Origin: a virus
Reading direction: 5' to 3' (one strand)
DNA length: 57,125 nucleotides
IMG/VR virus record: IMGVR_UViG_3300027712_000036
Span: 1-57,125 of that record
The position numbers were made by a program, and so were the translations under genes. Under the pieces are notes generated by a model. That model ran no database searches, was not told the DNA's origin, and saw only the letters and a program-made list of their open reading frames with translations. Numbering within the stretch: the first letter of the stretch is position 1; the number at the start of each line of letters is the position of its first letter. Below, in pieces: positions 52,133 through 53,773 of this stretch.

Positions 52133-52160
52133 TTGACATACAAAAAATATTTTATATTGA
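52133..52160 (+). promoter_or_regulatory. Possible rightward promoter before the plus-strand block
   Basis: TTGACA at 52133-52138 followed 16 bases later by TATTGA (52155-52160). It resembles a sigma70-type -35 with a weak -10, and the Bacteroidota -7 match is poor. It is the only candidate upstream of the first plus-strand gene; virion RNA polymerase may use another signal here. Confidence 0.3.
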
Positions 52161-52161
52161 T

Positions 52162-52238
52162 GTGAGAAGAGCCTACTCCATCTCAAAGACCCAGCCACAA
52201 ATTGAGCGGTGGGGATATCCTCCTGTAGTCACTTGCTC
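52162..52238 (+). ncRNA. Structured leader RNA candidate before the 132-aa gene
   Basis: GTGA plus CTAC (52162-52165, 52173-52176) pair with GTAG plus TCAC (52225-52232), and CTCAA (52182-52186) pairs with TTGAG (52202-52206). An alternative is TGAGA/TCTCA (52163-52167, 52181-52185). It contains GAGCCT, CCAGCCAC and GCGGTGGGG, words also seen in the two RNA regions further right. Not a tRNA. Structure is plausible but less certain than the one at 53243. Confidence 0.4.
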
Positions 52239-52265
52239 GAATCATTATTTAAACGAACATTTTTT

Positions 52266-52704: not shown

Positions 52705-52793
52705 CACCATTATATATATAAGGGTGGGTAATGATGCATTATTACGTAGGGTGGGGAATATTATTGCACCAATGTTGGACACAAATGAGGTGC
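52705..52793 (+). other. Intergenic hairpins and palindrome before the 87-aa gene
   Basis: CACC-TTATA/TATAA-GGTG hairpin (52705-52726), an 18-bp near-perfect palindrome GTAATGATGCATTATTAC (52728-52745), and GCACC/GGTGC (52766-52770 with 52789-52793). The palindrome could be an operator. The words AAGGGTGGG and TAGGGTGGGG repeat 27 bases apart. The remainder of the gap to 52923 holds only AT-rich sequence with TAGTTTTA and CACACA words. Confidence 0.4.
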
Positions 52794-52923: not shown

Positions 52924-53187
52924 ATGTTTATTATGAATAGTATTAAAGTTATAGGAAAGATTACACTTCCTGATGCTCCTAAAAAGCACAAATGTGTATG
53001 TCATGATTGTGGTAATGTATTAGATGATTCTTGTGGTGATCCAAGACATAAAGTTGTTACAGGTTGGACTGATGGTAGGAAAGAAGAGAGAATGATATGT
53101 GATTATTGTGCTGATGAGCAGTTTGGAGACTATGAACCATGTAGTATATTTGATGGTACACCAGATTGGATGAGATATTGTTATTAA
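52924..53187 (+). CDS. Zinc-finger-like small protein (87 aa)
   Basis: Cys at 24, 26 and 29 (CVCHDCG), 37, 59 and 62 (ICDYCADE) can bind one zinc ion or more. The rest is polar, with an acidic end (GDYEPCSIFDGTPDWMRYCY). Start at 52924 or at the second ATG (52933). It is flanked by its own structured leader region and terminator, so it is expressed alone. It may bind DNA or RNA or a host protein; no family recognised. Confidence 0.6.
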   Translation: MFIMNSIKVIGKITLPDAPKKHKCVCHDCGNVLDDSCGDPRHKVVTGWTDGRKEERMICDYCADEQFGDYEPCSIFDGTPDWMRYCY

Positions 53188-53210
53188 GGACTATTATAGT
53201 CCTTTTGTTT
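53186..53210 (+). terminator. Terminator after the 87-aa gene
   Basis: AAGGACTA/TAGTCCTT, an 8-bp perfect stem with loop TTA (53186-53204), then TTGTTT. It overlaps the stop codon. Confidence 0.75.
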
Positions 53211-53242
53211 AATGCACCAATTCCACGCAGATATATATAAAA

Positions 53243-53393
53243 CTGCACTGATTAATAAGTAGAGCCTTGCAGCCAATGATGTGTTGAAACACACATCTCT
53301 TTAATCAGTTTCCCAAGGGTGGACAGATGTAGTAGACAAATTGCTGTGAACTTCTGAATGTTAATCACGTCAATCTATTACATCTGAGTGCAG
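53243..53393 (+). ncRNA. Highly structured intergenic RNA with pseudoknot (candidate new ncRNA)
   Basis: P1 is CTGCACT (53243-53249) with AGTGCAG (53387-53393). P2 is GATTAA (53250-53255) with TTAATC (53301-53306). P3 inside P2 is GATGTGT/ACACATC (53278-53284, 53291-53297), loop TGAAAC. P4 is CAGATGTAGTAGA (53324-53336) with TCTATTACATCTG (53374-53386), 13 bp with one G-U. P4 is extended by TTGCTGTGA/TCACGTCAA (53341-53349, 53365-53373; one mismatch). CCTTG (53265-53269) can pair with CAAGG (53314-53318) as a pseudoknot. P4 ends exactly where the P1 strand begins. No frame longer than a few codons crosses it. It lies after a terminator and before the 62-aa gene. Confidence 0.7.
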
Positions 53394-53404
53394 AGGGAAC
53401 ATTA

Positions 53405-53431: not shown

Positions 53432-53620
53432 ATGGAAAGTATTAAACAAATGGTAGAATTAAAGAATATACTATCAGAAGTAAAAGAACTTAGACTTAAA
53501 AGGTATATACAAGATTTGGATGAGGTGTATAATAAACTTAATTCTCTTGTTAGAGATGAATTGGATACATCTTTAGAACAATTCTTAGTTGATTATTACG
53601 AGCTTAAGAAAAATAGCTAG
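53432..53620 (+). CDS. Small helical hypothetical protein (62 aa)
   Basis: MESIKQMVELKNILSEVKEL is followed by KRYIQDLDEVYNKLNSLVRD and DYYELKKNS. It is almost all helix with heptad-like Leu/Ile spacing, so probably a coiled-coil dimer. It ends in TAG. It lies between two structured RNA regions and shares its 5'-UTR box with the following gene. Function unknown. Confidence 0.65.
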   Translation: MESIKQMVELKNILSEVKELRLKRYIQDLDEVYNKLNSLVRDELDTSLEQFLVDYYELKKNS

Positions 53621-53621
53621 C

Positions 53622-53750
53622 ACAGTGTAGGACAAAAGTCTTGTCATAGTCTTACATTGTTTAACACCCAGCCACTGTAAGGTCAAAGACCTGGTGTGGA
53701 GATAAGAGCTTCAACCTGCTAAACGGTGGGAGAGGGTACCCAAGCCTCTC
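53622..53750 (+). ncRNA. Structured leader RNA candidate before the 99-aa gene, ending in an attenuator-like hairpin
   Basis: Stems: ACAGTGTA/TACATTGT (53622-53629, 53653-53660, one G-U) enclosing GACAA/TTGTC (53631-53635, 53641-53645); ACACC/GGTGT (53664-53668, 53693-53697) enclosing AGGTC/GACCT (53680-53684, 53688-53692); and GAGAGG/CCTCTC (53730-53735, 53745-53750) followed by AATTTTTATT. It shares CCCAGCCAC and CGGTGGGA words with the leader at 52162. The last hairpin could stop transcription before the gene. Confidence 0.5.
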
Positions 53751-53755
53751 AATTT

Positions 53756-53773
53756 TTATTCACACATATTAAA
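53756..53773 (+). promoter_or_regulatory. Shared 5'-UTR box, copy 2
   Basis: TTATTCACACATATTAAA, ending ten bases before the ATG at 53784; it differs from copy 1 by a single base. Shorter CACACA versions precede the genes at 54362 and 54778. Confidence 0.5.

Follow-up and report, generated by a model that had tools for sequence, protein, structure and literature searches.

The RNA encoded on the + strand at positions 53206-53401 of the window (the whole 57,125-nucleotide stretch analyzed, IMG/VR record IMGVR_UViG_3300027712_000036) is very probably a divergent phage form of the twister self-cleaving ribozyme, whose most likely use would be to cut early polycistronic RNA into mRNAs that are each stable on their own. 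All support for this assignment is comparative: the structure is seen in covariation, the homology with twister in layout and conserved letters, and the phage type, position and orientation in the surrounding genes. The twister ribozyme reportedly goes back to Roth et al. in 2014, and its type-P1 family is RF03160 in Rfam. The defining features of twister are stems P1, P2 and P4 (P0, P3 and P5 being optional), a U-A cleavage site in internal loop L1, and the pseudoknots T1 and T2, which connect loop L4 to L1 and L2 (PMC5408937). The window RNA follows the order U^AA, P2, two C, P4, U-CCC-AA-GG, P4′, P5, A, P2′, GA-GGG, P1′, and is matched at E 1.5e-10 by R1, a covariance model built only from the motif. 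Because its T2 is altered, we file it as a twister variant rather than a standard member. The claim that this form is undescribed is as strong as its basis, Rfam 15 and the open-access papers searched.

Features of the RNA and Its Flanks

52924-53187, + strand: upstream 87-aa gene of unknown function (ORF; homologs in contigs L002-L005)
53188-53206, + strand: terminator-like hairpin GGACUA-UUA-UAGUCC and U-run, between the 87-aa stop codon and the predicted cleavage site (from sequence)
53206-53401, + strand: whole RNA, type-P1 twister-like with an insertion in L4 (layout and covariation, 59 compact and 33 expanded relatives)
53206-53209, + strand: P1 5′ strand, partner 53398-53401 (4/4 pairs; all four P1 pairs covary in alignment A1)
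53210-53211, + strand: predicted cleavage site U53210^A53211 in the UAA of L1 (homologous to the twister U-A scissile bond; PMC5408937)
53213-53217, + strand: P2 5′ strand UGCAC, partner 53388-53392 (covariation)
53222-53226, + strand: P4 5′ strand UCCAC, partner 53319-53323 (all five pairs covary)
53227-53309, + strand: insertion within L4, comprising P6 and P7 with a tip hairpin (33 relatives with insertion)
53227-53230/53243-53246, + strand: P6 hairpin, loop AUAUAUAUAAAA (100% of cells paired)
53247-53255/53301-53309, + strand: P7 (98% of cells paired)
53278-53284/53291-53297, + strand: P7 tip hairpin (7/7 pairs in the window)
53311-53318, + strand: core loop L4, UCCCAAGG (invariant in A1)
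53312-53314, + strand: T1 strand CCC in L4 (T1 variants in divergent copies)
53317-53318, + strand: T2 candidate GG in L4 (invariant in A1)
53319-53323, + strand: P4 3′ strand GUGGA, pairs with 53222-53226
53324-53386, + strand: P5 hairpin with variable tip (53324-53336/53374-53386; 9/11 scored pairs change on both sides)
53388-53392, + strand: P2 3′ strand GUGCA (covariation with 53213-53217)
53393-53397, + strand: L1 3′ strand GAGGG (GA and GGG conserved)
53395-53397, + strand: T1 3′ strand GGG, pairs with CCC of L4 (covariation)
53398-53401, + strand: P1 3′ strand, pairs with 53206-53209
53432-53620, + strand: downstream 62-aa ORF

Relatives and Covariation

IMG/VR contains four relatives of the upstream 87-aa gene (L002-L005), and a related RNA is present in three of their contigs; in L002 and L005 it lies 3′ of the gene, and L004 has one on either side. 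Segments common to these three contigs and the window start about 30 nt before the 5′ boundary originally predicted for the RNA (AAUGCACC) and finish past its 3′ boundary (GAGGG). A two-block pattern, UCCCAAGG ... GAGUGCAGAGGG, gave 104 and at least 120 matches in viral contig stretches and five in the genomes of bacteria and archaea (257 billion bases). R1 matched a single one of these five, and weakly (E 0.051), so we regard them as mostly due to chance. In all, relatives were collected from at least about 200 IMG/VR phage stretches. BLAST searches of isolated-phage records with the region, and with the ribozyme of one relative, returned no match. At least 7 of 9 P5 pairs are kept in 204/209 distinct instances, found with a pattern that places no requirement on P5. 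The compact form, in which P4 is followed directly by the loop, accounts for 150 of 198 instances, and about 35, the window included, carry an insertion. Two to four nearby copies stand in tandem in L026, L068, L088 and L171.

Across the 59 compact relatives of alignment A1, a structure composed of P1, P2, P4, P5, T1 and T2 is paired in 91.1% of cells. Changes on both sides affect 18 of its pairs, and its covariation scores 0.351, versus 0.143 for shuffled and at most 0.099 for slid controls. Every pair of P4 covaries (99.3% of cells paired), and 21 distinct P4 5′ strands occur among 150 relatives. The P1 register with the most pairing, 69% of cells versus 36-60% in the others, is exactly that of twister: one nucleotide outside UAA on the 5′ side and directly outside GAGGG on the 3′ side. 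Since the relatives were sampled via exact blocks, P2, T1 and T2 appear more invariant than they are, and an unbiased reading was taken from 159 copies located by P4 and P5 pairing only. Among these, P2 reads UGCA/UGCA in 138, UGCG/CGCA in 5, UGUA/UACA in 2 and UGUG/CACA in 1; a fifth P2 pair is C-G in 142, U-A in 10 and U-G in 2; and T1 is CCC/GGG in 143, CAC/GUG in 3 and UCC/GGA in 1. One further copy (L038:2531) has CCA/UGG, and with these compensatory variants all three T1 pairs covary.

The insertion of about 35 members, the window among them, is a separately covarying L4 domain (P6/P6b/P7) located at the position of the extra nucleotide between P4 and the loop U. P6, P6b and P7 are paired in 100%, 86% and 98% of cells in the 33 expanded relatives, with both-side changes in 2, 3 and 6 pairs, respectively. 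An internal loop, GAUAUAAAGACUUCUUAG/CUAAGAUGUGAAAC, is common to most expanded members; in the window, L002, L139 and L044 a short loop replaces it, of 12 nt in the window. The P5 hairpin reaches up to about 140 nt across the family. Hairpin-tip cassettes of 36-39 nt recur with 89-100% identity on different helices of different ribozymes (the P5 tip of L100/L105 with the P7 tip of L056; P5 of L088 with P7 of L135/L169), suggesting that they may be exchangeable modules.

Comparison with Twister and Other Ribozymes

The motif shares with type-P1 twister (RF03160) the order UAA-P2-(T2)-P4/L4-P5-P2′-GAGGG-P1, the stems P1, P2 and P4, all of them covarying, a P1 placed directly outside L1, and a T1 of three Watson-Crick pairs between CCC of L4 and GGG of L1. 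The conserved letters also agree: AA 3′ of the cleavage site, G-A-GGG in L1 and U-CCC-A-A-G in L4. Canonical viral twisters, fetched by a separate pattern, read UAAUGCA-GC-...-CGGUCCCAAGCCCG-...-UGCA-GAGGG, so that the motif has the same sequence blocks around the active site; its UAAUGCA and UGCAGAGGG match many canonical phage twisters letter for letter.

The differences from canonical twister lie mainly around P2, T2 and L4. Covariation gives P2 five pairs instead of the canonical four; altered P2 length has been suggested to disturb the twister active site (PMC5408937). The GC dinucleotide that follows P2 and takes part in T2 is CC in the motif, and its GC partner in L4 is GG (invariant in A1). 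An early idea, that T2 had simply exchanged GC/GC for CC/GG, is weakened by the covariation of the first C (C17) with G119 as the fifth P2 pair; T2 may instead be reduced to a single pair, the likeliest from the sequences being C18-G35, with C17-G36 as the alternative. In addition, the near-invariant G-C pair closing L4 is replaced by C-G, A-U, U-A or U-G (pair 27-37), P3 is absent, P5 is long, and P4 is separated from the loop U by either an extra nucleotide or the whole P6/P6b/P7 domain.

The Rfam search proposed with the original prediction was run and gave no family match to the element: cmscan of the window, the element and the relatives against Rfam 15, at a threshold relaxed to E 10 for the element itself, assigned it to no family, and the Rfam twister models did not match the motif, RF03160 not even in a per-genome search at E 10. 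The missing P3 and the long P5 and L4 plausibly account for the blindness of RF03160. The earlier reading, in which the RNA was recognized as no known ribozyme, is not supported, given the twister layout and the ability of R1 to find Rfam twister-P1 members. On unrelated contigs, fetched for the canonical pattern, R1 matched L289 (E 6.8e-6, 4.8e-4 and 5.2e-4), L239 (0.005) and L270 (0.029), and the sites in L289 and L270 are independently called twister-P1 by RF03160 with 48-56 bits.

Twister-sister (RF02681) has a vague similarity to twister in the P4 loop (PMC6154101), but it is without the double pseudoknot and cuts the opposite strand (PMC5408937), whereas T1 covaries in RNAs of the window type; the RF02681 model did not match the element. 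Pistol, hatchet and hammerhead ribozymes have different folds and are not homologous to the motif. Rfam did identify other ribozymes in the carrier contigs, namely hatchet (L100:460-597 and L202:4453-4619), pistol (L059:1122-1190) and canonical twister-P1 (L149:855-923). This co-occurrence matches a published pattern in bacteria, where ribozymes that cleave themselves are grouped close to one another and to phage genes (PMC10085705), and the pistol and hatchet ribozymes would be consistent with a site that calls for some self-cleaving ribozyme.

Genomic Context

The window derives from a crAss-like phage, as had been supposed: crAss-like PHROGs match its portal, its terminase and its major head protein, and the portal is 25-27% identical to those of crAss-like phages over about 98% of its length. 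R1 finds the RNA in 24/25 records searched, usually as one copy per genome; the crAss-like portal family is present in 23/25, and in all 22 records having both, the RNA lies on the strand opposite the portal. In these phages the virion RNA polymerase transcribes the regulatory and replication modules, which are early, and the structural genes are late (PMC10136315). From this gene order we infer that the RNA is part of early transcripts, in an early-type arm between small genes. The flanking ORFs are mostly on the strand of the RNA (157/182 on the 5′ side and 159/175 on the 3′ side). A search of viral contigs with the downstream 62-aa ORF found no relative. A hairpin with U-run, as seen in the window ahead of the predicted cleavage site, occurs in 35/196 relatives, versus 7 when shuffled.

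A role in tRNA processing was considered and rejected: the ribozymes lie near tRNAs in 2/203 cases versus 7.2 expected at random. A search of the window for tRNA or tmRNA found none. Weak snoRNA and coronavirus Rfam hits elsewhere in the window were attributed to chance.

Several other conserved sequences were observed in the window or in related contigs. A second conserved, Rfam-negative RNA lies between the 62-aa and 99-aa genes (window 53625-53765, + strand); its core, AGCUUCAACCUGCUAAACGGU..GAGAGGGUAACCAAGCCUCUC, occurs in at least 12 IMG/VR contigs, directly 5′ of a twister-like copy in L080, L073 and L120, and it is possibly another ribozyme or a regulatory RNA. A conserved stretch at a divergent junction just 5′ of a 151-aa gene (window 52150-52250, + strand; TTATATTGATGTGAGAAGAGCCTACTCCAT..CCCAGCC..GGTGGGGATATCC), with blastn matches in L002, L003, L109, L135, L162 and L168, may be a leader RNA of early transcripts or a promoter region. 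AUAUA-GGGTGGG repeat blocks, perhaps promoter or origin elements, are found at window 52715-52765 and in L002-L004, just past the 3′ end of the gene preceding the small-gene cluster. Inspection by eye of L003 and L005 revealed an identical hammerhead-like sequence, CUGUC..CUGAUGA-U-GACC..GGUC-GAAACAG, directly 5′ of the 87-aa gene homolog; it has an extra U before stem II and is unreported by Rfam at E 1.

Proposed Mechanism

In the proposed mechanism, the early-arm transcript would fold with P1, P2 and P4 stacked and with T1 joining loop L4 (UCCCAAGG) back to GAGGG, placing U53210-A53211 beside the conserved guanine G53393, which by homology is the counterpart of the twister general-base guanine (PMC6154101). 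In established twister chemistry a guanine acts as general base and the N3 of an adenine as general acid (PMC6154101), and it is on this chemistry that the proposed cut at U53210^A53211 is based. Attack of the U53210 2′-OH on the phosphate would leave a 2′,3′-cyclic phosphate 23 nt past the 87-aa stop codon, just 3′ of the terminator-like hairpin, so that the upstream mRNA would end in a hairpin. The downstream RNA would begin with a 5′-OH and keep the folded ribozyme ahead of the 62-aa gene. The earlier suggestion of a leader for this gene is thus partly borne out, in that the ribozyme would be its structured 5′ leader after the predicted cleavage. The most likely use of such a cut would be to divide the polycistronic early transcript into separately stable mRNAs, with the L4 domain and P5 hairpin as accessory modules that probably stabilize or tune the fold. 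The usual presence of a single copy per genome argues against a general processing of many mRNAs.

Alternative Readings

Among the alternatives, a natural allosteric ribozyme fares best, though we consider it unlikely. Here the L4 domain (GAUAUAAAGACUUCUUAG..CUAAGAUGUGAAAC), the P5 tip or both would sense a metabolite, protein or RNA that decides whether the early transcript is cut, and the L4 domain together with exchangeable P5/P7 tips would define a natural allosteric twister family in crAss-like early operons. A highly conserved L4 internal loop between covarying helices with variable tips has the usual appearance of an aptamer or docking element, and the modules folded at the P5 tips are diverse and in some cases shared. 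Purely structural docking explains this conservation equally well, however, while 150/198 members are compact and lack the L4 domain, and the conserved internal loop has shrunk to a 12-nt loop in the window itself.

Somewhat less probable still is a twister-derived RNA that has lost cleavage and persists between the two genes as a stable structured leader or 3′-end protector. A P2 longer than that of canonical twister, together with the changes in T2 and in the pair closing L4, could be read in this way, as could the single copy per genome. Yet AA, GA and CAAG are invariant in the alignment, and U precedes AA in 144/150 compact relatives, while the helices vary freely; moreover, divergent copies restore T1 by compensatory change, as expected if catalysis is kept.

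That pairs of ribozymes excise an RNA, which is then ligated to a circle or small RNA, appears quite improbable. The close copies in the four tandem cases would suit such excision, but most genomes hold one copy, and RtcB is found in 1/25 carriers and TROVE in 0/25. A search for RNA_lig_T4_1 gave no match in the carriers or in any control and so carries no weight. The RtcB-like RNA ligase of one carrier phage is encoded at G011:51449-52222.

The original prediction, a closed four-helix RNA of unknown class at 53243-53393 acting as a leader or in polymerase binding, is hardly credible as a whole: every one of its pairs exists in the window, but the 7-bp closing helix 53243-53249/53387-53393 (7/7 in the window) is complete in only 2/33 expanded relatives (the window and the one nearest to it), P6, which competes with it, is paired in 33/33, and GUGCA (53388-53392) covaries instead with UGCAC (53213-53217), 30 nt 5′ of its start. 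Its interior fared better. The branch 53247-53255/53301-53309 is P7, conserved and covarying with 9/9 pairs where six had been given; the 7-bp hairpin at 53278-53284/53291-53297 forms all its pairs in the window; and the 13-bp helix is P5 (13/13 pairs, one G·U), likewise conserved and covarying. The boundaries had to be moved to 53206-53401, since the cleavage site, the 5′ strands of P1 and P2 and the T1 3′ strand (53395-53397) all fall outside the earlier interval. A 5-bp pseudoknot had also been proposed with its bases unnamed; the conserved pseudoknot is T1, and our guess at the pairing that was meant, CCUUG (53265-53269) with CAAGG (53314-53318), was rejected, CAAGG being part of the conserved core loop and CCUUG missing from the nearest relative, L002. 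On the argument that so much pairing is unlikely by chance, the 151-nt fold of −43 kcal/mol (z = −2.71, equaled by 3/200 shuffles) beats chance but is not overwhelming for a single sequence. The broader proposal, that a structured non-coding RNA of the phage precedes the 62-aa gene, stands, as homologous loci show strong covariation rather than conservation of the DNA alone.

Significance

This twister-like form occurs in more than 200 phage stretches of IMG/VR, most of those tested being crAss-like; it is missed by the current RNA library, and counts of phage ribozymes are consequently too low. Loop L4 contacts the active site in known twister crystal structures. The motif keeps its active-site letters while the length of P2 and the pairing of T2 change and L4 accepts a domain, and it thus offers a direct test of the requirements of the twister fold. 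Because it sits in the early-type arm of crAss-like genomes, it provides a concrete, testable case for what self-cleaving ribozymes do in phages.
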